Under the pieces are notes generated by a model. The model was given only the letters and a program-made list of their open reading frames with translations, searched no databases and was not told where the DNA came from. Shown here piece after piece: positions 13,201-42,022 of a stretch of DNA of 60,093 nucleotides (position 1 is its first letter; each line of letters begins with the position of its first letter). Source of the DNA: Desulfurobacterium indicum (lineage in GTDB: Bacteria; Aquificota; Aquificia; Desulfurobacteriales; Desulfurobacteriaceae); the NCBI RefSeq assembly GCF_001968985.1, contig NZ_MOEN01000009.1:1-60093 (forward strand), read 5' to 3'. The position numbers and the translations under genes were made by a program.

Positions 13201-13507
13201 CACCGAAGGAACTTACAGGTTCTTAAAGGAGCAGGGGCTTCCTGTTTCCATAGTTTACAAGATTCAAGAAGGAAGAAGGCCAAACATTGCAGATATGATA
13301 AAAAACAACGAAATAGCCCTTATCATCAACACTCCGACTGGTTCAAAGTCAAAGAGAGACGCAATGAGCATAAGAAGACTTGCCGTTAACTATGGGATCC
13401 CTTACTACACAACGATAAGAGGTGCTGAAGCGGTTGTTATGGCCATCAAGTCTGTAAGAGAGAAGAGCTTTGATGTTAAACCTTTGCAAGAATATCATCA
13501 ATTTTAA
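10289..13507 (+). CDS. carB: Carbamoyl-phosphate synthase large subunit
   Basis: Makes carbamoyl phosphate from bicarbonate, ammonia (from the CarA glutaminase) and two ATP, for pyrimidines and arginine. Both homologous halves are present: the first begins [22 protein letters not shown] and has [12 protein letters not shown]; the second begins [21 protein letters not shown] and has [13 protein letters not shown]. An MGS-like allosteric domain is at the C-terminus. About 1072 residues. I prefer TTG at 10289 (protein then starts PKRTDLKK as in the family) because CGGAGG lies just before it, inside the extension from ATG 10274. carA is not in the window. Confidence 0.96.
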
Positions 13508-13881
13508 TTTCTGTCGGGAACCGTAAGGTTCCCATTTTCAATATATTTTTCGATGCTTATACCGGCTCTTGATAGATAATCTGGAAGAAAAGAAAGTAAT
13601 TCTTTCACTCGTTTTTTGAGGAATTTTTCTCTTAGTTTTTCGCGATTTTTGACTGGGTTTTCCACCATTGTCACGTTAACAAACCGGATATTTGCAATCT
13701 GACATTTTCCTTCTGTTATGGAACCGAAAATTTCAACTATTACCGCTGTTAGGTTTTCCATTTTTTTGATGCTGACTGCCGTTTTCAGGTTAACGGTGGC
13801 TTTAACTTTTTCTGTTTTCAAGGCAAGTTCTGGATCAACGAACAGTTCCTGAAACGGCCATATATTTTCAATCTCTTTCAA
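13504..13881 (-). CDS. Uncharacterised protein (125 aa)
   Basis: I do not recognise this protein. It is predicted soluble, with alternating beta-strand-like segments ([36 protein letters not shown]) followed by a basic helix-rich part ([21 protein letters not shown]). It overlaps the upstream gene by 14 bases and converges on carB with a 4-base overlap, so it is probably the second gene of a two-gene unit. Coding potential is supported by that coupling and by the absence of a better frame on the other strand. Confidence 0.6.
13516..13533. terminator. Hairpin between convergent carB and the 125-aa gene
   Basis: A perfect 7-bp stem, GGGAACC and GGTTCCC with a GTAA loop, begins nine bases after the carB stop codon and is followed by ATTTTC on the plus strand. 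It lies inside the last codons of the opposite gene, so it could end carB transcripts while being read through as coding sequence on the other strand. Confidence 0.5.
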
Positions 13882-14260
13882 TGTTCTTCTCCAGTACTTT
13901 AAGTATCATCTCAATTTTATCAATGGAAGACGCTATCCAGACTTTTATTTCTATTTCCCTTTCGCTTCCAGACTCGCAAGCCCAGCGGTAGTTTCTGAAT
14001 ATGTGGTGAAACATGTCGTAGAGTATTTTTTTCTCTCTCAAGGTATTTGCGGCTTTTTTTATATTTTTTCTGGTTTTCAGGAGTTCTTTTTTCTTTTTTC
14101 TGAATACATTTCTGAAAACGCGGTTGGATAGTTTTTTCATGTCAAGGCTTGAGATTTCTCTTTCCGTTAATTTGACAAACTCTTCAAACAGCTCGTCGTG
14201 GTTTTTCGCATAGACAGGCGTCATCTCTATTTCGTGTTTAATTTTAAGCTGAACTTTCAT
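13868..14260 (-). CDS. Uncharacterised basic protein (about 130 aa)
   Basis: Not recognised. It is rich in Lys/Arg and predicted mainly helical, with a strongly basic stretch FRKKKKELLKTRKNIKKAA near its middle and a beta-type start (MKVQLKIKHEIEMT). I chose ATG 14260 over a longer frame that would overlap the divergent pgeF start. A TATAAT lies only nine bases before this ATG and no Shine-Dalgarno sequence is visible, so the mRNA might be leaderless. Overlaps the next gene (125 aa) by 14 bases. Confidence 0.6.
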   Translation of the reverse strand: MKVQLKIKHEIEMTPVYAKNHDELFEEFVKLTEREISSLDMKKLSNRVFRNVFRKKKKELLKTRKNIKKAANTLREKKILYDMFHHIFRNYRWACESGSEREIEIKVWIASSIDKIEMILKVLEKNIERD

Positions 14261-14300
14261 AATGATAGAATTATAAACCAAACCTTCAAGCAGGGGTGTG

Positions 14301-14891
14301 ATGAAGTATGAGATTTTCATATCGGAAAAACCGATAGACGGAAGGGAAATAGAAGAGATAAAAAGATTTCCAGTTATAAGGCCAGTTCAGATCCACAGCA
14401 GCACAGTAATTTTTGCCGGGAAGCGATATTCTGGAAGAAAGGGAGATGCAATTGTTACAGACAACAAAAAGGTATGGGTTGGCGTTTTAAGTGCTGACTG
14501 TCTTCCTATTCTCGTTGTGGCAAGGGGAATGGTTGCGGCTATTCATGCCGGATGGCGTGGAACATTAAAAGGCATTACGTTTAAGACTTTAAAATACATT
14601 CAAACATTTACCAATGTTCAGAAAATCGTAATTGGTCCCGGGATCTGCGGGAAGTGTTACGAAGTTGGTGAGGACGTTTACAGGCTTTTCAATCCTCACT
14701 TGAGAGACCGGCTTTTCAGACCTTATGGAAGTAAAAAATATCTATTTGATCTAAAAAAGGCAAATGTCATTCAGGCAAAGTCTGCAGGGGTAAGCCTCAT
14801 AGAGGATTTAAATCTCTGCACCGTTTGTAACAACGATAGCTTTTACTCTTACAGAAAAGAGAAAACGGAAAAAGAATATTGTCCGCCATAA
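14301..14891 (+). CDS. pgeF: PgeF/YfiH-family (laccase-domain) protein
   Basis: A multicopper-polyphenol-oxidase-like protein (PF02578). Family members act as purine nucleoside phosphorylase/adenosine deaminase (human FAMIN and bacterial homologues) and, in E. coli, in peptidoglycan editing. Conserved motifs: LSADCLPI near residue 66, AAIHAGWRGT near residue 81, IGPGICGKCYEVG near residue 114 and CTVCNNDSFYSYR near residue 175; the His and Cys residues are the zinc/copper ligands. About 196 residues, slightly short for the family. ATG 14301 is preferred over GTG 14298 for spacing from AGGGG. It converges on the oligopeptide ATPase gene. Confidence 0.9.
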   Translation: MKYEIFISEKPIDGREIEEIKRFPVIRPVQIHSSTVIFAGKRYSGRKGDAIVTDNKKVWVGVLSADCLPILVVARGMVAAIHAGWRGTLKGITFKTLKYIQTFTNVQKIVIGPGICGKCYEVGEDVYRLFNPHLRDRLFRPYGSKKYLFDLKKANVIQAKSAGVSLIEDLNLCTVCNNDSFYSYRKEKTEKEYCPP

Positions 14892-14896
14892 GGCTT

Positions 14897-15844
14897 TTAT
14901 GAGTTTATAACCGGGAAAAAACAGCGAACTTCTCTGCCGTTTATTTTTTCTATTTCGGGGATTTCCTTCTTGCAGATCTCCTTGGCTCTCTTGCATCTTG
15001 GGTGAAACGGGCAGCCTGAAGGTCTTGATTTTATATCGGGAACATTACCGGGAAGAACTGGGAGTTTTCTTTTACCTTTTCCTTCAACTTTTGGAATGCA
15101 GGCTATCAGTCCTTTCGTGTAGGGGTGATAGGGATTTTTCAGAACATCACCTGTTTTTCCTGATTCCATGACGTATCCTGCATACATGACGTAAACTCTG
15201 TCCGTTGTTTTGGATATTACATCAAAATCGTGTGATATGAACAGTAGTCCGGTGTTTTTTTCGTTGACCAGTGAGTTAAGCAGAGAAATAATTTCCTTTT
15301 CTGTTTTTTTATCGAGGGCTGTCGTTGGTTCATCGGCTATTATAAAATCAGGATTGCATGCAATAGCCATGGCTATTATTACTCTCTGCTTCAGTCCTCC
15401 CGAAAGCTGGTGGGGATAACTTTCATATTTTATTTCTGCATCAGGTATGGCAGCTTTTTTAAGCAGGGAAATTACTGTTTTTTTCATATTTCCCGTGGTT
15501 TCTCTATGGTAAGTTATGGCTTCTGCTATTTGATCACCGACTTTCAAAAGGGGATTCAGGGAAGATGAAGGGTCCTGAAATATTACAGAAACGGTTTTCC
15601 ATCTTATCTCTTTGTTAAGTTCCTTTTCACTTAAAAGGTATATGTTTTTATCGTTAACCTTCACAGTTCCTTGAATTTCAAAGCTTTCAGGCAAAAGTTT
15701 CACTATGGAAAGTGCCGTTATTGATTTTCCGCTTCCGCTCTCTCCTACTATTCCTACCTTTTCTCCTTTTTTTACAGTCAGGTTGACGTCTTTTACTATT
15801 GTGTTGTTTTTATAGAGAACGGAGAGATTTTCCAGTTCAATCAT
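14897..15844 (-). CDS. Oligopeptide/dipeptide-type ABC ATPase (DppD-like), orphan
   Basis: An ABC ATPase of 315 residues with Walker A GESGSGKS, Q-loop FQDPSSSLNP, signature LSGGLKQR, Walker B DFIIADEPTTALD and the switch His (FISHDFDVI). The C-terminal oligo_HPY region has HPYTKGLIACIP and the GCPFHPRCKRA cysteine motif typical of DppD/OppD, which bind an Fe-S cluster in some members. No DppF partner, permeases or substrate-binding protein are near, so what it energises is unknown. It overlaps the 588-residue gene upstream by 8 bases and appears to be the last gene of that unit. Confidence 0.9.
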   Translation of the reverse strand: MIELENLSVLYKNNTIVKDVNLTVKKGEKVGIVGESGSGKSITALSIVKLLPESFEIQGTVKVNDKNIYLLSEKELNKEIRWKTVSVIFQDPSSSLNPLLKVGDQIAEAITYHRETTGNMKKTVISLLKKAAIPDAEIKYESYPHQLSGGLKQRVIIAMAIACNPDFIIADEPTTALDKKTEKEIISLLNSLVNEKNTGLLFISHDFDVISKTTDRVYVMYAGYVMESGKTGDVLKNPYHPYTKGLIACIPKVEGKGKRKLPVLPGNVPDIKSRPSGCPFHPRCKRAKEICKKEIPEIEKINGREVRCFFPVINS

Positions 15845-17603
15845 CTATTTTTACCTCTATCCAGTATGAACTTCCGGAAAACATGGTTTCGTCAAGAAAA
15901 AATTTTTCACAGGTTGGCTTTTTGCCTGTTTCTTCCTTTGCTGCAATGTAGTGAGCTACCACTTTTGGCACAGTTCCGAGGAGAAATCCGTGACTGTCTT
16001 TTATCGTGTATGTTACTGGCGTTTGCGGGTTAAGAACTTCTCTTGTCAAAACGATAGGTTCGTCAGTTTTGATGACTCTTTCCCAATTTGATCTGTATTT
16101 TCTCTCTGTTATTACGGGGAAAATATACCTGTTTTCCATGGCGAAAAATTGGTGAAAATTTTCATAGTTTTTGAGTTTAAGTAAGAATTGGAGAAGCTCT
16201 TTGTTCCCCGCGATGCCGTCAATTTTAATATATCCAAAACATTTTAAAGCGTATATACCTATAAGATACCAGAGATTTTTTTCTTCAAGAATTTTTTTCG
16301 TTTTGTTTCCAACGGCTTTAAACATTACAGGGCTTTCAGCATATAGCGATTCCATTGTAGAGAAAAGATATGTAAGATTTTCCAGTGAAAATTTGAAATC
16401 CTGGAGATTCTTGATGAGTTCGTTTCTTCTTGAAACGGCTTTTTTTCGATAAAAGAGTCTTGCCAGAAGCCATTTCTTGTTTATCCTTTCGGAGAGAAGG
16501 TTTAAAACCTCTCTATCAAGGAACCAGTTGATGTAAAGGAAGAGACGGTCTTTTTCTTTGACTATTTCAACGTAAGGTCTAAATGTTTTATGTTTGAGAA
16601 TATTTTTTACAAGTGTTTTAAAGGCATTTTCAACCAATTCTGTTAGAAGTTTTTCTTCTGACGGTTTGGTTTTTATATGGCTTATTTCTATTTTAAGTTC
16701 CACGCCGTCAACAATTTCTCTTGCTACTGGCACGATCAGGACTTTTCTGTCGTGAACTATTTCGTAATTGGTGTATGCAACTCTTACTGGGAAATGAGGT
16801 TCTATCGTTTGTGAAATTGTTTCCAGAATTGAAGCGATTACGGAACTGTCTTCTTTATTTTTAAGGTCCAGTAGTTTTTTATACTTTATTTTGAAATTTT
16901 CTTCAGTTTCTTTTTGTCTGGTTTCAGGTTGGGATAGTTTTAATTTTTCAAACTTTTCCCAGTATAGAATGTCAACGTCTTCTTCGAGAGGAACAAGATC
17001 TGTGTGGATATCATCATAGCCCAATTTCATTGCGTTGTCTCTTATTCTCTTTGCCTTTTCAAAAAGTCCAATTTCCTGTCTTGATATTTTCCAGAAAGTT
17101 TCTTCTATGTGCAGAAATTCTCCTTCAACGGGAAAATAAAAGTTTTTGTAGGCTTCTATGAGGAATTTGTAGCTGTTGACCCGCTCATGCTTTTTATGAA
17201 TTATCAGTTGAATGTCTATATCATTTATATGTTTGTTCGATGCTATAAGTATAGACGGCGATTTAGGAAATTGTTTTCGAAAAACTTTTATTTTTTCTGT
17301 TATGTATTTCGGAGTTAAAAAGTTTATTCCAGGTTTTTTGATCTGATCGGGAAATATGGAAAATAACATCAGGACCTTTTCTTCCGGTTTTATAAACTTT
17401 TCTTGCTTTATGGGTGTTCCGGTTTTTCCCGAAATATACATGGCAAACGGGAAGGCACACGGGTCAGCAGGATAGATGGCATTAAATTTTATGTTGAGTC
17501 TGCGTGTTCTGAAAATGAAATTATCGATAGCATCAAGTATGTTTGTCTGAGAAAGTGTTTCAACCTTATATATCGGTCTGTAAGTGCAACTGTTAACTTT
17601 CAT
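15837..17603 (-). CDS. Uncharacterised 588-residue protein; possible PRTase-like N-part and HIRAN-like C-part
   Basis: I do not recognise a characterised family. The first ~100 residues have a pattern recalling a phosphoribosyltransferase fold (DPCAFPFAMYISGKTGTPI, then EEKVLMLF), but without the catalytic DD pair. The middle is charged and mostly helical (about 190-260 and 380-470). The last ~70 residues (LTREVLNPQTPVTYTI, then GFLLGTVPKVVAHYIA) resemble a HIRAN-type domain, which in SNF2 proteins binds DNA 3' ends. Both domain suggestions come from reading by eye. It has no signal peptide or membrane helix. The gene starts 77 bases after the V-ATPase D gene and overlaps the orphan ABC ATPase by 8 bases. 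Confidence 0.7.
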   Translation of the reverse strand: MKVNSCTYRPIYKVETLSQTNILDAIDNFIFRTRRLNIKFNAIYPADPCAFPFAMYISGKTGTPIKQEKFIKPEEKVLMLFSIFPDQIKKPGINFLTPKYITEKIKVFRKQFPKSPSILIASNKHINDIDIQLIIHKKHERVNSYKFLIEAYKNFYFPVEGEFLHIEETFWKISRQEIGLFEKAKRIRDNAMKLGYDDIHTDLVPLEEDVDILYWEKFEKLKLSQPETRQKETEENFKIKYKKLLDLKNKEDSSVIASILETISQTIEPHFPVRVAYTNYEIVHDRKVLIVPVAREIVDGVELKIEISHIKTKPSEEKLLTELVENAFKTLVKNILKHKTFRPYVEIVKEKDRLFLYINWFLDREVLNLLSERINKKWLLARLFYRKKAVSRRNELIKNLQDFKFSLENLTYLFSTMESLYAESPVMFKAVGNKTKKILEEKNLWYLIGIYALKCFGYIKIDGIAGNKELLQFLLKLKNYENFHQFFAMENRYIFPVITERKYRSNWERVIKTDEPIVLTREVLNPQTPVTYTIKDSHGFLLGTVPKVVAHYIAAKEETGKKPTCEKFFLDETMFSGSSYWIEVKIDD

Positions 17604-17680: not shown

Positions 17681-18298
17681 TTAGAATGTTCTTATTTTTC
17701 TCTCTTTCAGTTTTTTTATTGTCGAGAGAAATTCGAGCTCCTGTTCTTCTAGAGCTGTTTCTATCTCTTTGATAGCTTTTTTATACATGGGGATATAGTA
17801 TTTCTCAACAGCATTAACCCTTATAACTGTTTTTTTAAGCTCTTCTGCCAATCGCCAGGCTTTTATCTCCATTTCTGAAAGTTCCATAACTTTTTTGACT
17901 GCGTCTATGAATGCGGTTCTTGCAAGATCTATAAATATAGATTCGGAAACGGCATCTATGGGAAACTTTTCAAAGTTTAGTTGATATTTTATAGATGGAA
18001 CGGGAATACCAATGAAGCTTTTTTCAACAGCTTCTACGGTGCCCTGTAAAGATGTTGTTTCGACCTCTTCTTTTACTGAGTCTTTTCCCTCCTCCATGTA
18101 GGCTTTTTTTAGCATTGCGTAGGCTTTCTGAACATAGATGTTAAGCTCCTGTCTGGCTTTTTCCACTTTATCAAGGTGTTTTAAGATTTCTTTTATTAGC
18201 ACGTTCCGTTTGTGCTGGAGTATATCTTTTCCCTCTTCCATAACCTGCAGGTCTTTTTTAAGTTCGAGAAGTTGAGTTTTGCTTTTTATAAATTTCAT
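17681..18298 (-). CDS. atpD: V/A-type ATP synthase subunit D (central stalk)
   Basis: Subunit D forms the long coiled-coil rotor shaft that passes through the A3B3 head. The 205-residue protein is two long helices, N-terminal (1-75) and C-terminal (135-205), typical of the family, with the middle segment variable. It is the last V-ATPase gene, overlapping subunit B by 4 bases. No terminator is visible after it, and the 588-residue gene follows after 77 bases. Confidence 0.9.
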
Positions 18299-19644
18299 CT
18301 TATGTGCTCCGCAATGTCTTCTTCCGTAAGGCGTGTGAGCTCGGTTTTTGGAAGAATGGAAAGAAGCTGCCAGCCGATCTTTATCGTTTCTTCAAGCGTT
18401 CTGTCCTCCGTTTCGGACTGTGTTAAGAACTTCTTTTCAAAAGCTCTGCCGAATTCAAGGAATTTTCTGTCGGTATCGCTGAGTTCAGATTCTCCTATGA
18501 TTGCAGCTAACATTTCAACGCGCTTTGAGCGGGCGTAAGCGGAATAGATCTGGTTTGCCCAGCGTCTCTGTAGTTTGGTTATACCTTGATTCATAAGCCT
18601 TGATAGGGAAGGTAAAACGTTGATTGGCGGATATATTCCTTTTTTGAATAGCCCTCTGTCGAGGACTATTTGCCCCTCTGTTATGTATCCCGTTAAGTCG
18701 GGAATTGGATGGGTTATGTCGTCGTCAGGCATCGTAAGGACGGGAATTTGGGTAAGAGAGCCTTTTCTCCCTTTTATAAGGCCTGCTCTTTCGTATATTG
18801 TTGCAAGATCGCTATACATGTAACCGGGGTATCCTTTTCTTCCGGGAATTTCATCCCTTCTTGAAGACATTTCTCTCAGAGCATCACAATAGTTGGTCAT
18901 ATCGTAAAGGATCGTTACAACATCATATCCCTTCTCAAAAGCTAAAAACTCCGAAAGTGTAAGGGCAGCTCTCGGAACGAGAACATTATTAACACAGGAT
19001 TCGTTTGCCAAACTCATAAAAACGGCCGTCTGGGAGAAATTACCGCTTCCCTTTATATTTTCAATCAAACTACTTGCTATTTCATACTTTATACCTATAA
19101 GTCCCAAAACTATGGCATTTTTATTGTTGTCGCCGGGAATTTTAATCTGACGAACGAGCTGTGCAACCAATTTATCGGTCGGGACACCTGAAACGGCAAA
19201 TATGGGGAGTTTTTGTCCTCTGACAAGTGTGTTAAGTCCATCAATGGCTGATATGCCTGTGTGAACGAACTCATTAGGGAAGTTCCTCCAGGCGGGATTT
19301 ATGGCTTTTCCGTTTATGTCTTCTTCTCGTGAAGAAACGATACTTCCAAGTTTGTCTGCAGGTTCTCCGAAAGCGTTGAATATCCTTCCTAACATCCTTT
19401 CAGAGACGGGGATTTTGAACGGTTTGCCGGTGAAGCGAACGTGAATGGCATTTACCTCTATTCCTTCAGTTTCTCCGAGAATTTCTATGAGTGTTACTTT
19501 TTCTCCAAGTTCTACGACTCTTCCCGGAAGTTTTTTATCCTTCCACCGAACATAAACTTTTTCTCCGTAGGAGACATTTTCAACTGTTTCAAACGCTAAA
19601 AGGGAGCCTTTTATACCTGTTGCACCTTCATACTCTATTATCAT
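18295..19644 (-). CDS. atpB: V/A-type ATP synthase subunit B (non-catalytic)
   Basis: The regulatory, non-catalytic head subunit. The 449-residue protein has the family motifs [35 protein letters not shown] and, in place of a Walker A P-loop, [11 protein letters not shown], as expected for B. It also has the [19 protein letters not shown] region and [13 protein letters not shown]. Overlaps subunits A and D by 4 bases on either side. Confidence 0.97.
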
Positions 19645-21371
19645 TTTTCCCGCTCACCGTAGATTTTTATGAGATTTTTGTAGGTGGATTCTATTTTTTC
19701 TTCAATGTTTTCAGGCACTGATTTTAAAAATCTTAACTTTACAATTTCTTCAACGATTTTCTGTCCCTTCAACGTTTTAATAGGAATTGCTGCTTCTTTT
19801 AAGCAGGCCTGCCACCAGTCATACAGGCTTTTCAAGACTTTCGCGAGTGCTATCTGCTTTTCAGGCGGACAGTAGGCATCTATCGGGTCAAATGCGTTCT
19901 GCTGAAGGAAAACTTCTTTAACTAGATTTGCTATTTCAACCGTGAGTTTTTGCTCTTCTGGAAGTGCTTCGGATCCAAGAAGTTTAACAATTCGCTGAAG
20001 TTTGTCGTCTTCCTGGAGGAGTTTCATCATCCAGCTTCTGAGTTCGTACCACTCCTTGTATATATCTTCCCACCAGACTCTTACAGTTTCACCATAGGCA
20101 CTGTAACTTTGGGTGTAATTGATTGCAGGATAGAATCTTGCATTTGCAAGTTCTTTGTCAAGTGCCCAGAAAACACTTGTGAAACGTCTTGTGTGTCTTG
20201 TTACAGGTTCGGAGAAATCTCCTCCCGGCGGTGAAACGGCACCTATTATTGATAGGGAGCCAACTTTACCTGACATTGTTTCTACAAAGCCCGCTCTTTC
20301 ATAAACACCGGCTATTCGGGATGAAAGGTATGCAGGAAATCCTTCTTCTATAGGAAGTTCCCCCATCCTCGTGGAGAGTTCCCTCATGGCTTCGGCCCAT
20401 CGAGATGTGGAATCTGCCATTAAGGCTACGTGGTATCCCATGTCTCTGAAATATTCGGCTATGGTTATACCGAGATATATAGAAGCTTCTCTTGCCGATA
20501 CGGGCATGTTTGATGTGTTTGCTATAAGGATTGTTCTTTCGATAAGTTTTTTGCCCGTTTTCGGATCTTCAAGTTCCGGAAATTTTTCAAGAACCTCTGT
20601 CATTTCATTCCCGCGTTCCCCACAGCCTATGTAAACGATGATATCTGCATCACACCATTTTGCGAGCGTCTGTTGCAGAATTGTTTTTCCAGTTCCGAAT
20701 CCACCGGGAATGGAAGCCGTTCCTCCTTTTGCTATTGGGAAGAGAAAATCAATGATTCTTTGACCTGTAATAAGTGGTGTATCAGGCTTTAATCTTTTTC
20801 TGTATTTCCTTCCGAATCTTACCGGCCATTCCTGGATCATAGTTAGTTTTCTTCCATTATGAAAGCAGAGAAGTTCCTCGTTTATTGTGTAGTCTCCTTC
20901 TTCTTTTATCTCTTCTATAACTCCTTCTATGCCGTTGGGAATTGTAAGAAAATGTTTAATCGAGCTTTCTTTGACATAACCAAAAATATCCCCTTCTTCT
21001 ACTTCATCTCCTTTTTTCAGTAAAGGGACAAAGTGCCATTTTTTATCTTTAGATAATGGATATACAGAAGCTCCTTTTTCTATTCTTTCTCCCAGTTTCA
21101 TGAGGGGTCTTTCAATTCCGTCGTATATAGAACCTAAAAGGCCAGGGCCTAATATTGCTTTAAGCATTTCTCCTGAGAGAATTACCGGTTCTCCGAGTTT
21201 CAATCCTTCTGTGGCTTCGTAAACTTGGACGGTAATAGTATCTCTTTCTACGGAAACGATTTCACCTATTAGTTTGTCTTTGCCGACGTAAGCCACTTCA
21301 AGTAGTTTCGGTGATTCATTTTCAAGGGTTGCTTTTACTATTGGTCCTGATATGTAAGTTATTCTTGCCAT
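19641..21371 (-). CDS. atpA: V/A-type ATP synthase subunit A (catalytic)
   Basis: The catalytic nucleotide-binding subunit, 576 residues. The Walker A is PGGFGTGKT near residue 225 (many family members have GPFGSGKT), followed by the catalytic-Glu segment GCGERGNEM, the [13 protein letters not shown] motif with Walker B upstream (HVALMADS), and the family's bulge/non-homologous region in residues 110-190. In an autotroph or chemolithotroph the complex would most likely make ATP from the ion gradient; in others it pumps. Four bases separate it from subunit E. Confidence 0.97.
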
Positions 21372-21374
21372 TTA

Positions 21375-21929
21375 TTAACCCTCTAAAATAGAAGCGATTT
21401 CTCTATCTATTTCTCCTTTGAATTCTTCAAGAATACTATCCAGAGAAAACTCTATTACCATTCTGTCGTGTTTAAAAATGACTCCGTTTATGTCGGTGCT
21501 TTCTGTGATGGTATATTTGTTGCCGACTGCCTTTTTAACCTGTTCTTTGAAAGAGGGAGATACTATTATCGTGCCGTCGTTAAAATTGTTCTTTATCCAG
21601 ACGATAAAGCATTCCAGCATCATGGGAAAACGTTCTTTCAGCCGTTTCCTTAACTCTTTAACAAGTTCTTCTCTGACATGGACTTCTTTGTCTTCTACGG
21701 CTTTTCTGATTTTTGCGTCTATTTCTGCCATGGCGTTGAACTTGAATGATTCGAGTTCTATTTGAGCGGCTTTTAGCTTTTCCTGATATAGTCTTCTGCC
21801 TTCACGCTCTGCTTCTATCAATTTTTCCTGAGCAAAGGCTTTCGCAGAATTTACTCTGTCCCTTGCTATCTCTTTTGCCCTTTCAAGAACCTTATCTTTG
21901 AATTTACTGAAGTCTGACTCCGAGAACAC
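21375..21929 (-). CDS. atpE: V/A-type ATP synthase subunit E (peripheral stalk)
   Basis: A 184-residue protein with a long N-terminal coiled coil (residues 5-80, many Ala/Glu/Lys/Arg) and a C-terminal alpha/beta domain (residues 100-184). With G/H it builds the peripheral stalk holding the A3B3 head. Assignment rests on length, coiled coil and position between F and A. Overlaps subunit F by 26 bases. Confidence 0.85.
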   Translation of the reverse strand: MFSESDFSKFKDKVLERAKEIARDRVNSAKAFAQEKLIEAEREGRRLYQEKLKAAQIELESFKFNAMAEIDAKIRKAVEDKEVHVREELVKELRKRLKERFPMMLECFIVWIKNNFNDGTIIVSPSFKEQVKKAVGNKYTITESTDINGVIFKHDRMVIEFSLDSILEEFKGEIDREIASILEG

Positions 21930-22209
21930 TTGCCAAAAACTCCTTTAAGCTTTGTTTAGATGTTGTTCCATCAATTGACGGAACAAATACTACTGCCGGT
22001 AAAGCTTTCTTTCCAAGTTTTTTCTTTAACTCTTTGTCGAAAGCGTCGGCAAATTTTTCTGATACTACCAGAATTGCCACTTCCGGATCGGAAAGGATTT
22101 CAGAAGTAACATTTTTGAAAGCAGTTTCATCTTCTGCCGTTGCTGTTTCAAGTCCTGCAAGCTTAAAACCCACGCATTCGTCTTCCGTTCCAACAAATAT
22201 GATTCTCAT
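21904..22209 (-). CDS. atpF: V/A-type ATP synthase subunit F (central stalk)
   Basis: A 101-residue Rossmann-like protein (IIFVGTEDECVGFKLAG at the start; VAILVVSEKFAD in the middle) that caps subunit D in the rotor and influences coupling. The FVGxxD/EECxGFxLAG opening and the length are typical of the family. It overlaps the K subunit stop by 4 bases. Confidence 0.93.
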   Translation of the reverse strand: MRIIFVGTEDECVGFKLAGLETATAEDETAFKNVTSEILSDPEVAILVVSEKFADAFDKELKKKLGKKALPAVVFVPSIDGTTSKQSLKEFLASVLGVRLQ

Positions 22210-22484
22210 CCTACTTTTCCCAGTATTAAGATGGCTATGATTAGTCCGTAAATGGCAATACCTTCAGCAAGTCCTAAAAATACGATTGCTTTTCCCGAAA
22301 TTTCGGGTTTTTCACCTATTGCTCCCATTGCTGCTGAGCCGACAAGACCGACAGCGGCTCCGGCTGCTATTGTTGAGCAGGCTACGGATATTGCAGCTGA
22401 CAGATATGCCCACATTGCATCACCGGCCAGAGCGATTGCCGGAAACATTACTAAAAGAAGCGTTCTTAGTGCTGTTTTTCTCAT
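22206..22484 (-). CDS. atpK: V/A-type ATP synthase proteolipid subunit K (c ring)
   Basis: A 92-residue proteolipid with a hydrophobic leader-like N-terminus (residues 5-21, ending ALAG), then two membrane helices (about 27-53 and 64-90). The ion-binding carboxylate is Glu74 in FLGLAEGIAIYG. There is one hairpin per subunit, as in Thermus-type enzymes and unlike the duplicated eukaryotic c. No helix-1 Gln and no Thr/Ser after Glu74 are seen, which argues mildly for proton rather than sodium coupling. Overlaps I and F by 4 bases. Confidence 0.94.
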   Translation of the reverse strand: MRKTALRTLLLVMFPAIALAGDAMWAYLSAAISVACSTIAAGAAVGLVGSAAMGAIGEKPEISGKAIVFLGLAEGIAIYGLIIAILILGKVG

Positions 22485-24298
22485 TTCTCTTCCTCCAATT
22501 TGAATGGCTTGAAGGGTTTTCCTCCACCTTTGAAAAACTTTCCGAAAAATTCGTAGTATTCGAGTCTCATTGTTTGAATTGAAACTACGAGAGCTTCAAG
22601 GACAATGACGATGATGTTACCTATTATCATGGTAATCCAGTATCCTGCTCCGTGATGTCCATCTGGTGATATAGCTCTTGCAATTGTGAAAATTGCAAGC
22701 ATGAGAGCTGCATGTGCAAGGGCAAATGCGCCAAGTCTTACGAAAGATACAGTCCCTGTTATATTTTCAAGTAGTGACATAAAACCGTCAAGGAAAGAGC
22801 CGAAAACCTGCTTTTTCTTGTAAATTTCATATCCTACGGTGATTATAACCATCACGGCAACTATGATTAGTTCGGTTTTTACATTTCCTTTAAATACTAC
22901 TGCCTTTATGGCAATACCTATTAAAAACCAGTAAATTAAAAACCACAAAATTCCACCTTCTCCTGCTAGCATCTCTCCGAATTCTTTTTTTCTGTATTGT
23001 GTGATTATGTTAAGTATAAATCCTACTGAAAGCACAAGTATGCCTATTGCTATACTGAATATGATAAGTTTGTCTATGTTTTCCATTGGATTAAAGAGTA
23101 GAGGATGGATCAGATGTTCGTCTCCGAAAACTGAACCATAGAGAAGACCAAAAATTGCAGAGCTTATTCCGCAGAATATCAAAACTTTACCGTAACTTTT
23201 AAAGGTTTCTGTTTTCTTTGAGAGTATGTATCCCGCAATGGAAAGGACTATTCCGTGGCCAACGTCACCGAACATTACGCCAAAGAGCAGAACAAATATA
23301 AAGGCGAAAAAAGGTGTTGGATTAAGTTCCTTGTATGAAGGGTATCCGAAACCTGTTACAAGTTCTTCAAAGGGTTTCAGTAATCTCGGTGTTTTAAGGA
23401 GCACAGGGGCATCTTCAGGTTCGCTGAAGATCACTCTGGAATGTTTTAAAGCTTTTACTATTTCATCCTTTTTATCTTCCGGCACCCATCCTTCGATGAT
23501 GTATCCTTCTGCCGTTCTTTTAACCAGATTTTCAGTTTCAAGTATTTTTTTCATGATATTTAGTTTTCTTATTATTTCTAACAGTTTTTCTCCGTATTCG
23601 TTTACCGCCTTTTCTTTCTCTTTTAGATATAGTTCTCTTGTAGCTAAAACTTTGTTTTTTGTTTCGGTTAGAAAGTCATTATTGTTTAAGACCTTTCCTT
23701 CTGTTTTTTCTATACCTTTTTGAATAACATCTTCTAGATCATCCGTATAGAGTATGGCAACAGCGACGCTGCCCTCGCTTAGCGGTTCATGAACAGTAAA
23801 GGCTTTATAGCTTTTGGCTGTTAGTAGCAGTGATTCTGCCGTGTCGGAAGGAACAAGAACGGCTTTTAATTTTATGAATGACAGGTTTTTGACAAGAGTT
23901 TCAATGTCCAGGTCTTCTCTAAGTGTTTCTTTTACTTTTTCTGCTGTAAGGACATCTTTTGTTCGTTGTTCTACTTTTTTTCCTTCAGAAGATAACTTAT
24001 CTATGATTTTGGATATGTCATTAAGTATGACCTCTATTTTGTCTATTTCTCTTGGAATTTCCTCAAGCTGAATATCCCTGACTTCTACTATTTTTTCTTG
24101 AACACCAAGGGCATCAAGGTTGCTTTTCGCAAGAGAAAGCAGTGTATCTACACGGTTAATTTCTGTTTCAAAGATTCTGTTTTTGTTTCTGTCATCTATG
24201 TGAAGTGCTCCGATTTTTCCCAGAGATTCTATTTCCGTGTCAAGGTATTCTTCTGGTATTGTGATTGTTACTCTATACATCTTTTCCGGAAAAATCAT
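22481..24298 (-). CDS. atpI: V/A-type ATP synthase subunit I (membrane stator, a-like)
   Basis: The stator subunit that forms the ion half-channels against the c ring. A cytosolic N-terminal half (residues 1-330) with coiled-coil arms is followed by a membrane half with about seven to eight helices (from about residue 335), including the GVMFGDVGHG motif and the conserved functional region SFVRLGAFALAHAALM (essential Arg) and late ISPDGHHGAGYW. 605 residues. Shares one base with the stop codon of the C gene (TAATG). Confidence 0.95.
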   Translation of the reverse strand: MIFPEKMYRVTITIPEEYLDTEIESLGKIGALHIDDRNKNRIFETEINRVDTLLSLAKSNLDALGVQEKIVEVRDIQLEEIPREIDKIEVILNDISKIIDKLSSEGKKVEQRTKDVLTAEKVKETLREDLDIETLVKNLSFIKLKAVLVPSDTAESLLLTAKSYKAFTVHEPLSEGSVAVAILYTDDLEDVIQKGIEKTEGKVLNNNDFLTETKNKVLATRELYLKEKEKAVNEYGEKLLEIIRKLNIMKKILETENLVKRTAEGYIIEGWVPEDKKDEIVKALKHSRVIFSEPEDAPVLLKTPRLLKPFEELVTGFGYPSYKELNPTPFFAFIFVLLFGVMFGDVGHGIVLSIAGYILSKKTETFKSYGKVLIFCGISSAIFGLLYGSVFGDEHLIHPLLFNPMENIDKLIIFSIAIGILVLSVGFILNIITQYRKKEFGEMLAGEGGILWFLIYWFLIGIAIKAVVFKGNVKTELIIVAVMVIITVGYEIYKKKQVFGSFLDGFMSLLENITGTVSFVRLGAFALAHAALMLAIFTIARAISPDGHHGAGYWITMIIGNIIVIVLEALVVSIQTMRLEYYEFFGKFFKGGGKPFKPFKLEEEK

Positions 24299-25143
24299 TA
24301 TACACCTACCAACATTCTTTTAATTTCTTTTTCTGGAAGTCCGAAGTAGATTCCCTCTATACATGCTTTTAAATTTTTTATTTCAATTTCTTTTAGTCTT
24401 AACAGCGCGAAAGGTATTGAAAGCTTAAAAGGATAACCGAACCATACTTTGTTTACGGTATTTATATGATATCTGTAAAGTTCTTTTCTTAAGTCGGTGA
24501 AATCTTTAACCGGATTTTTAAAAATTTCCGGAAATGCATAGGTTATATTTGAAAGTTTATCTACTTCCAGTAGCTTTTTTATGTTTTTGTCATTTATTTC
24601 GTTCCCAAATGGAATTATAAAGTTGAGTATGCTTTTTTCGTCAAGTTTGTAGATAAATTTGAGCCGAACAGCAGTCATTATATTTATCAGGTCAAAGTAA
24701 CTTCCTGCAATGGTTTTTAAATCTTTCCTGTCTTCTCTGTCAAGATTGTTTATTGCTTTTTTTAGAGATTCTACGTATTCTTTGTCCATTTTACTGAAAA
24801 GCTTTCTGGCGTCTTTTCTGCTTTTAAGTTTCTTTTTCTTTTCTCTGAGTTCTTTTCTTCCCATAAAGAAAAGAAAGAAGACTTCTTTTTCCCTTTTTGA
24901 AAGTTTGTCGGTAACTTTTTTGTAGAGGTATTGAAAATAAGCGTCAAGCCCTTTTGACATAGATTTTTCCAGAGCGGATTTTATAAACTTTTCATAGGGA
25001 GTGCTTTTTATCGTGACGAGTATATCACCGACTGTGGTTGCTGTTACTAGCTGTTCAAAGGTGCTTTTTTCCAGCAACGTTGACTTTATCGTCCGGCACA
25101 TGGCGTTTGTATAGCTAAATTTAAGAGGTCTCGTTAACCACAA
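24298..25143 (-). CDS. atpC: V/A-type ATP synthase subunit C
   Basis: Subunit C links the rotor shaft D/F to the proteolipid ring. The 281-residue, helix-rich basic protein contains the family features LxFSYTNAMCRTIKSTLL near the start and a KSTPYEKFI segment, and ends with the IEIKNLKACIEGIYFGLP motif characteristic of C/d subunits. Overlaps H/G by 10 bases and touches I. Confidence 0.9.
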   Translation of the reverse strand: MWLTRPLKFSYTNAMCRTIKSTLLEKSTFEQLVTATTVGDILVTIKSTPYEKFIKSALEKSMSKGLDAYFQYLYKKVTDKLSKREKEVFFLFFMGRKELREKKKKLKSRKDARKLFSKMDKEYVESLKKAINNLDREDRKDLKTIAGSYFDLINIMTAVRLKFIYKLDEKSILNFIIPFGNEINDKNIKKLLEVDKLSNITYAFPEIFKNPVKDFTDLRKELYRYHINTVNKVWFGYPFKLSIPFALLRLKEIEIKNLKACIEGIYFGLPEKEIKRMLVGV

Positions 25144-25454
25144 ATCCTCCCCCTAAGGTCCTCAAATATCTTTTCAATAAACTTTTCCCTGTTTTCTTCG
25201 GAAAGCTTTTCGAATCCAAATATGATCTTTTCAAGTTCAGATTCTTTTTCTCTTCTGTATTTTTCAACTTCCTGACGGATCTTTTCAGAGAGTTTCTCTT
25301 TTTCTTTTTCGGCTTTTTCTATGTAGGAATTGATAATTCTGGAGTAGCTTTTATTGGCTTCTTCGATAATCTGAGAAGCAGAGCCTTCTGCAGATTTAAC
25401 TATCGAAGAAGCTTGCTCATCAAGGTTCAAGAGGCTTTTTGTAAGATTCCCCAT
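25134..25454 (-). CDS. atpH: V/A-type ATP synthase subunit G/H (peripheral stalk)
   Basis: A 106-residue, almost entirely coiled-coil protein rich in Glu, Lys and Ser, of the G/H stalk type that pairs with subunit E. It is the first gene of the ATPase set and overlaps the end of radA by 35 bases, with GAGG just before its ATG, so the ATPase genes appear to be transcribed as an extension of the glmS-purU-radA unit. Sequence conservation in this family is low; the call leans on position, length and heptad-rich sequence. Confidence 0.82.
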   Translation of the reverse strand: MGNLTKSLLNLDEQASSIVKSAEGSASQIIEEANKSYSRIINSYIEKAEKEKEKLSEKIRQEVEKYRREKESELEKIIFGFEKLSEENREKFIEKIFEDLRGRICG

Positions 25455-40226: not shown

Positions 40227-40255
40227 ATTTGCTAAATCGCCGCTGGAGAGATTGG

Positions 40256-40816
40256 ATGGTTTTAAAAGGGAGATTTTCTTCCTATCAGGAGTTTTTTGAT
40301 CTTGTAAAGCTTGTAACGCAGATGAAGATGACGATTAATTTGTGTCTTACTCATGAGAGGAAAGGGAAAAGACTTTTTTTATCGTTTAAAGATGGTTCTC
40401 TTGTGGTTCTTGAGTGTGATTGTAAAGAAGCGGTATTGCTTGATTTTAACTTTAAAAATGGAAAGGTTCCGGTAGAAAGATTTATAAGAACAACAATTTT
40501 TATTTTTTTGCTTGATTTTGAAGATTTTTCTTTTGAGACAGTTTCTAAAGAGAAAGAGGAGATGTTTAAAATTGATGATTTTGAAACTATGTTTCTTGAT
40601 GTAATAAGAGAGGTTGATGAAATTAGCGATTTTCCAGAAGAAATGGAATACAGAATTAAAAGTTCTGAATTTATGCTCTCTTCTGTGGAGGAAGTTCAGC
40701 TCCTGGGATATTTGTTGTCAGGGTATTCTCTTTATCAATCCATATTTTCAATGGGTAAAGTTAAGGAATTTTTAGATGCTTATAAAAATTTAAAGAAAAA
40801 GGAGTTTTTGTCTTAA
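40256..40816 (+). CDS. PATAN/DUF4388-like protein
   Basis: A 186-residue soluble protein whose first ~75 residues (MVLKGRFSSYQEFFDLVKLV, then LFLSFKDGSLVVLECD) resemble the PATAN/DUF4388 domain found in two-component and gliding regulators of bacteria and in cyanobacterial PatA. The rest is helical and acidic (FETMFLDVIREVDEISDFPEEME) with no known domain. It stands alone between two minus-strand units, with its own promoter and a shared terminator. ATG 40256 follows GGAG. The domain call is by eye and moderate. Confidence 0.6.
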   Translation: MVLKGRFSSYQEFFDLVKLVTQMKMTINLCLTHERKGKRLFLSFKDGSLVVLECDCKEAVLLDFNFKNGKVPVERFIRTTIFIFLLDFEDFSFETVSKEKEEMFKIDDFETMFLDVIREVDEISDFPEEMEYRIKSSEFMLSSVEEVQLLGYLLSGYSLYQSIFSMGKVKEFLDAYKNLKKKEFLS

Positions 40817-40821
40817 AAAGA

Positions 40822-40842
40822 GATTGGGGAATTTCCCCAATC
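40822..40842. terminator. Bidirectional terminator between the PATAN-like gene and argD
   Basis: A 9-bp perfect hairpin, GATTGGGGA-ATT-TCCCCAATC. On the minus strand it is followed by TCTCTTTTT and overlaps the argD stop codon; on the plus strand by AAATTTCTTTT. Confidence 0.82.
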
Positions 40843-42022
40843 AAATTTCTTTTAAAACATTTCTGAGGATTTCTATCCCTTTTTCTATATCTGTCTTTTC
40901 AATGATTAATGGTGGAGCAAATCTGATAACATTACCTGCAGTGCAGTTTATTATTAATCCTTTTTCGAGTGCTTTTTTAACTATATCGCTACAGGTAACT
41001 TTGCACACGGCACCTATCATTAATCCTTTTCCTCTAATGTTTTCTATTACTTCAGGAAATTCATTTTGCAGTACTGTAAGTTTTTCTCTTAAGTAGTTTC
41101 CTTTATCATTTACTTCTTCGAGAAAAGCCTTTTGAGATACTATTTCTATTACTTTTTTACCGGCGGCTGTTGCTAAGAAATTACCGCCGAACGTTGAAGC
41201 GTGAAGTCCCGGTTTTAAAACATTGGCAGCTTTTCCTTTTGTTACAATGGCACCTATCGGAACACCATTACCGAGGGCTTTGGCAAGTGTCATTACATCC
41301 GGTTCAACATTGTAATGCTGGTATGCAAAAAGTTTACCGGTTCTTCCTATACCTGTTTGAACTTCATCAAATATTAGAATTGCGTCTATTTCATCGGCTA
41401 TTTTTCGTAGTCCCTGTAGAAACTCTTTTGTTGCAGGAACTATTCCACCTTCTCCCTGCACCGGTTCTACAATAATTCCGCAGGTTTTTTCGCTTACAAG
41501 AGATTTCATTGAATCAAGGTTGTTAAATTCGGCAAATTTTACATCCGATAGCATGGGGCCAAAACCTTCGTTATATTTTTCCTGTCCTGTTACTGATACG
41601 CTGGCAAATGTTCTGCCGTGGAAAGAATTTTTGAATGCAATGATTTCATAACCTTTTTTGCCTTTTTCGAAAGCGTAACGTCTTGCAAGTTTTATTGCCC
41701 CTTCGTTTGCTTCGGCTCCGCTATTGCAGAAAAATACTTTTTCTCCGAAAGAGTTTTCACATATCAGTTTTGCAAGCTCTGCCTGAGGCTTAATGTGGAA
41801 TAGGTTTGATGTATGGATAAGTTCTCTGGCCTGCTTACATATTGTTTCGGAAACTTCCGGATGGCAGTGTCCAAGGTTGCATACGGCAATTCCTGCTAGC
41901 ATATCCAGATACTCTCTGCCATTTTCGTCGTAAAGGTAACATCCCTGCCCTTTTACAAATGAGATGGGATATCTATTGTAGGTTTTCATTACATATTTCT
42001 CGGTCATTTCTATTGTGTTCAT
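40841..42022 (-). CDS. argD: Acetylornithine aminotransferase
   Basis: PLP-dependent class III aminotransferase making N-acetylornithine in arginine synthesis (often also acting in lysine synthesis). 393 residues with NSGAEANEGAIKLAR, the FHGRTFASVSVTGQ motif, VEPVQGEGGI, IFDEVQTGIGRTGKLFA (Asp that binds PLP) and TLAKALGNGVPIGA (Schiff-base Lys). AGGAGG before ATG. It lies 12 bases after der, at the end of the lptD-to-argD unit. Confidence 0.96.
   Translation of the reverse strand: MNTIEMTEKYVMKTYNRYPISFVKGQGCYLYDENGREYLDMLAGIAVCNLGHCHPEVSETICKQARELIHTSNLFHIKPQAELAKLICENSFGEKVFFCNSGAEANEGAIKLARRYAFEKGKKGYEIIAFKNSFHGRTFASVSVTGQEKYNEGFGPMLSDVKFAEFNNLDSMKSLVSEKTCGIIVEPVQGEGGIVPATKEFLQGLRKIADEIDAILIFDEVQTGIGRTGKLFAYQHYNVEPDVMTLAKALGNGVPIGAIVTKGKAANVLKPGLHASTFGGNFLATAAGKKVIEIVSQKAFLEEVNDKGNYLREKLTVLQNEFPEVIENIRGKGLMIGAVCKVTCSDIVKKALEKGLIINCTAGNVIRFAPPLIIEKTDIEKGIEILRNVLKEI

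Follow-up and report, generated by a model that had tools for sequence, protein, structure and literature searches.

The locus and its neighborhood

The stretch of DNA analyzed here (the window) is 60,093 nucleotides long and is one contig of the 1.6-Mb genome of Desulfurobacterium indicum. At 15837..17603 on its minus strand lies a gene for a 588-residue protein, which its open reading frame, its presence in 24/24 genomes, its dN/dS and an AlphaFold2 model together mark as a core gene, in single copy, of the order Desulfurobacteriales. The original prediction had the coordinates and length of this ORF exactly right and gave no strand; the plus frame over the interval is full of stops, the 588 codons are open on the minus strand, and a ribosome-binding-site-like GGGAGA precedes the ATG. 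The motifs quoted in that prediction can all be located: DPCAFPFAMYISGKTGTPI spans residues 47-65, LTRE 519-522, LNP 524-526 and GFLLGTVPKVVAHYIA 539-554.

The stop codon of the gene overlaps by 8 bp (ATGATTGA) the start of a gene for an OppD-type ABC ATPase (oppD; 14897..15844, minus strand). Synteny places this ATPase gene downstream in 21 of the 22 members of the family, bearing out the coupling to an ABC ATPase that had been claimed. It had also been called an orphan; it is an OppD-type subunit, and because contig C12 carries oligopeptide-type permeases together with a second oligo_HPY ATPase, it probably has distant partners there.

On the other side, argD (a class III aminotransferase by Pfam) is directly upstream of the gene in 18/24 genomes. 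Junction overlaps are about 8-11 bp in the argD-gene-oppD cases inspected, and in the single-contig genome G005 both the argD-gene and gene-oppD junctions overlap by ~10 bp. Two genomes of one genus (G002 and G003) have a divergently oriented ~190-aa gene between argD and the studied gene, while G011 has argD but not oppD next to the gene. A second family of the order has the arrangement argD-trmFO-gene, where we take the middle gene to be trmFO from its sequence; oppD is absent from this locus, and carB comes next in G022. With 18 direct cases plus these variants, the ancestral context is argD-gene-oppD.

This order is broken in the window. The studied gene and oppD have moved together behind a V-ATPase operon, and argD stays apart at 40841..42022 (minus strand) with a ~190-aa gene beside it. 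The adjacency to the V-ATPase operon occurs only in the window genome and its sister G001, indicating a recent relocation. The gene does lie behind the operon, as had been noted, but the functional link that this might imply is not borne out: as a neighbor the operon is found in only 2/24 genomes of the synteny survey, which is the product of a local rearrangement rather than a constant association, and we reject it as a partner.

Some further features of the window deserve mention. The operon itself, a V/A-type ATPase operon of an Aquificota bacterium (Desulfurobacteriaceae), occupies 17681-25454. The divergent gene beside argD, at 40229-40816, encodes a 195-aa protein with no Pfam match, and its counterpart in G002 and G003 marks the ancestral site. 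At 13504-14320, carB is separated from a yfiH-type gene by a pair of short ORFs on the minus strand (125 and 150 aa) that overlap each other; of the neighborhood loci compared, only G001 shares the pair.

Distribution and selection

Orthologues lacking internal stops are present, one per genome, in 24/24 Desulfurobacteriales (Aquificota) genomes, the named relatives being Desulfurobacterium, Thermovibrio and other Desulfurobacteriaceae; in G002 the orthologue is split over two contigs. A profile built from 23 sequences recovered no orthologue in the remaining 112 genomes of the phylum, and a search for relatives outside the order in 391 genomes, which reached beyond the phylum, gave only E-values of 0.08-0.34, which is noise. 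No copy was found in the phages, plasmids and viral contigs searched. The gene is conserved in Desulfurobacteriales as a vertically kept, single-copy gene, and as far as we have searched its distribution is confined to this one order of thermophilic bacteria from vents.

The nearest relative of the studied protein is 86% identical, with a dN of 0.077 at a saturated dS of ~3.4. This value, together with intact orthologues in every genome of the order, takes the gene far beyond a chance ORF and places it under strong purifying selection. Such selection and a core-gene distribution argue for a housekeeping role. No Pfam, NCBIfam, PHROGs or PADLOC family passes threshold for the protein, and the earlier suggestion of an undescribed function in a protein of no nameable family stands uncontradicted. 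A Pfam match to myo-inositol-phosphate synthase (E 0.11) and PHROGs and NCBIfam matches scattered in single members are at chance level.

Domain architecture

The AlphaFold2 model of the whole protein, built on a 23-sequence alignment, has a mean pLDDT of 84 and a pTM of 0.75. From the N-terminus it predicts an alpha/beta unit at residues 10-140, a run of helices, another alpha/beta unit at 244-363, an all-helical segment at 364-479 and, at 490-588, a small domain rich in beta structure. The last of these is the best conserved, with a mean identity of 59% compared with 47-50% in the other parts. PDB sequence searches with whole-protein, N-terminal and middle profiles gave nothing meaningful. 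Taken as a whole, the protein is a novel architecture built from known domains.

The head of the protein (residues 10-140; 17184..17576, minus strand) probably adopts a degenerate type-I phosphoribosyltransferase (PRT)-like alpha/beta fold. Foldseek with the whole model ranks the OPRT 2wns first (E 1.5e-3, probability 1.00, rmsd 11.4) and also retrieves the HGXPRT 1hgx at a TMt of 0.52; we infer from the alpha/beta succession of the N-terminus that these matches belong there. The family conserves P45-x-D47-P48, P64, K66, E68 and F81-S82 in this region. In an hhalign comparison with 16 PRTs of the order, AIYPADPCAFPFAMYISGKTGTPI aligns with the first loop of the PRTs, VVVAIPRGGVVVAEPVAEALNAPL, at a non-significant 4.7% (E 0.0085); comparisons with single PRT subfamilies gave nothing, and a Pfam search of the family members gave no PRT match. 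The PRPP-binding motif of two acidic residues plus TGxT is not found. VLMLFSIFPD stands in its place, with F81-S82 invariant, so that the family reads VLxVFS where type-I PRTs carry VLxVDD-x-x-TG-x-T. The original prediction of a PRTase-like start stripped of its catalytic acids is plausible, with moderate support from structure and a profile comparison that is in the correct register but falls short of significance.

The middle of the protein consists of an alpha/beta domain with the predicted succession helix, hairpin, helix, hairpin (residues 244-363; 16515..16874, minus strand; AlphaFold2 and Foldseek), in which E261, E281 and E306 are invariant, and of the all-helical segment (364-479; 16167..16514, minus strand; AlphaFold2), which has no detectable relatives. 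Foldseek suggested a GHKL/histidine-kinase ATP-binding domain at residues 244-375. We reject it, given an hhalign score of 0.2% to HATPase_c and the absence of the G1 box (DxGxG). Fold matches to phage tail terminators, presumably to the same residues, have low TM-scores and reflect a widespread alpha/beta layout.

A divergent HIRAN domain

Residues ~490-588 (15840..16133, minus strand) are a divergent HIRAN domain. Pfam alone would not have assigned it: PF08797 scores E 0.094 and 13 bits in the studied protein, the best E among the 23 members is 0.012, and the best orthologue, that of G002, reaches E 1.1e-4 and 22.3 bits when searched genome-wide, still below the gathering cut-off of 24.7. 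The homology is carried by profile comparison. Against 24 genuine HIRAN domains (alignment A6), a reference set that in turn finds both HLTF and lp_0118 among PDB sequences (E ~1e-15 to 1e-17), the C-terminal profile gives 96.1% and E 2.8e-9 by hhalign, and the whole-protein profile gives 93% and E 2.8e-7 in the same register; the control comparison of the C-terminal profile with PRTs was nil. The model of this part (pLDDT 90) matches 3k2y (lp_0118) and the HLTF HIRAN in Foldseek with probabilities of 0.94-1.00 at E-values of only 0.02-0.1, the TMt being up to 0.60 for 3k2y and 0.39-0.47 for HLTF chains (probability 0.97-1.00). Among 177,635 PDB sequences the C-terminal profile ranked HLTF first, if weakly (E 0.46). 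The HIRAN-like C-terminus read from the letters of the gene is thereby confirmed.

The residues through which HIRAN domains act are a different matter. R501, G539, G543 and Y552 are invariant in the HIRAN part. When mapped by alignment, Arg71 of HLTF corresponds to R501 (kept in 23/23) and Asn91 to N525 (kept in 20/23, though lost in the second family of the order), Asn90 is replaced by L524, and Asp94 falls on T528, a position held by S or T in 21/23. We take Arg71 and Asp94 to be contact residues of HLTF. Within the HIRAN signature of G, N-x-x-D-x-x-A and G, only N525 and the second glycine, G543, are kept, with T499, S/T528 and T531 in place of G, D and A. The domain therefore shares fold and register (~491-588) with human HLTF, yeast Rad5 and Lactobacillus lp_0118 but differs from them in most of its signature, and since the replaced residues include Asn90 and Asp94 of the HLTF pocket, recognition of 3' ends is unlikely to have been inherited.

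Published work on other HIRANs bears on this point. The known members are DNA binders (PMC7804152, PMC11237066, PMC8262856), and in HLTF the N90A-N91A substitution disrupts HIRAN function (PMC11237066). Rad5 HIRANs have two of the ten HLTF contact residues and bind DNA with no need for a 3'-OH (PMC7804152). By analogy, nucleic-acid binding by the tail of the studied protein is plausible, and the DNA-end recognition proposed earlier is weakened: judging by the residues at the pocket, it should not be assumed.

Other Aquificota proteins of ~490 aa and ~245 aa (L109, L110, L103, L060-L064, L105) likewise end in a HIRAN, but their HIRANs retain more of the signature residues, and the ~490-aa group can be aligned with the studied protein over the HIRAN part only. 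L109, L110, L103 and L114, which come from a different family of the phylum (f3), are 410-490 aa long, with HIRAN at the end and unrecognised N-terminal parts. The ~245-aa proteins with a C-terminal HIRAN are L060-L064, L099, L102, L105 and L115.

What the protein may do

We tentatively propose, as the reading that we prefer and short of an even chance, that the protein binds nucleic acid as an adaptor or sensor peculiar to the Desulfurobacteriales lineage and is probably non-catalytic. The HIRAN domain would hold nucleic acid by a single strand or the backbone, probably not specifically by a 3'-OH end. The PRT-like head may be a module for ligand sensing or dimerisation, the middle domains would link it to the HIRAN domain, and the whole would serve as an adaptor or sensor in the maintenance of the chromosome or RNA of these thermophiles. 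No catalytic motifs of PRTs, GHKL proteins or HipA kinases are detectable in the protein, and it has neither the SNF2 motor nor the RING of HLTF/Rad5-type proteins. Several observations speak against parts of this proposal: most of the HIRAN signature is replaced, in the second family including Asn525, argD and oppD, and trmFO and carB in one family, are not DNA-repair genes, and the homology of the PRT-like head rests on a fold similarity with an E-value just above 1e-3.

K66, E261, E281, E306 and H484 are invariant and could form an unrecognised active site. It is conceivable, though rather doubtful, that the protein is an enzyme of an unrecognised class, with an active site drawn from D47/K66/E68 or from E261/E281/E306/H484 and a HIRAN that targets it to nucleic acid. 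The persistence of several invariant polar residues across 23 diverse sequences would fit such an enzyme, as would the fact that HIRAN often serves to target enzymes, HLTF/Rad5 and the HipL kinases among them (PMC7804152, PMC8262856). However, neither motif nor fold matches a catalytic family: the PRPP motif and the GHKL G1 box are missing, hhalign favors GHKL as little as stated above, and a HipA kinase identity is rejected at 0.9%. HipL kinases and HipN antitoxins (PMC8262856) resemble the protein in being bacterial, multidomain and tailed by a HIRAN, but it shows no similarity to the HipA kinase.

The conserved neighborhood suggests another function, which we consider unlikely, namely that the HIRAN fold was repurposed for protein-protein contact and that the protein serves ArgD and OppD as regulator or assembly partner, acting in amino-acid or peptide metabolism and not on DNA. 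The head-to-tail order and overlapping junctions of argD, the gene and oppD, the joint relocation of the gene with oppD in the window genome (G000) and G001, and the loss of most HIRAN DNA-contact residues are all consistent with this. Small thermophile genomes contain many compact mixed operons, though, so that adjacency alone lends it weak support, and the second family, with trmFO between argD and the gene and no oppD at the locus, departs from it, as does G011 with no adjoining oppD.

A domesticated or active component of defence or of a toxin-antitoxin system is very improbable: bacterial HIRANs do often occur alongside HipA kinases, phages and defence islands, HipN and HipL proteins carry HIRAN, with HipA kinases as its known bacterial partners (PMC8262856), and HIRAN-HipA clusters lie near defence genes (PMC11706625), but the studied gene is universal, single-copy and vertical, unlike defence genes, has no PADLOC and no consistent PHROGs family, is absent from the mobile elements searched, and belongs to a genome in which hipA was not found.

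Implications

Work on HIRAN has dealt mostly with the fork remodellers of eukaryotes. A HIRAN protein that every genome of a bacterial order shares, that is inherited vertically and that travels with neither phages nor toxin modules would offer an accessible way to ask what HIRAN does in housekeeping. With low probability, the gene may encode an order-wide housekeeping factor not described before, one that substitutes for an existing step in the maintenance of DNA or RNA or contributes an extra one, and in which a dead PRT-like domain would sense a ligand and the HIRAN tail would recognise a new nucleic-acid feature. The PRT-like head, if confirmed, would make this an unusual combination of head and tail.
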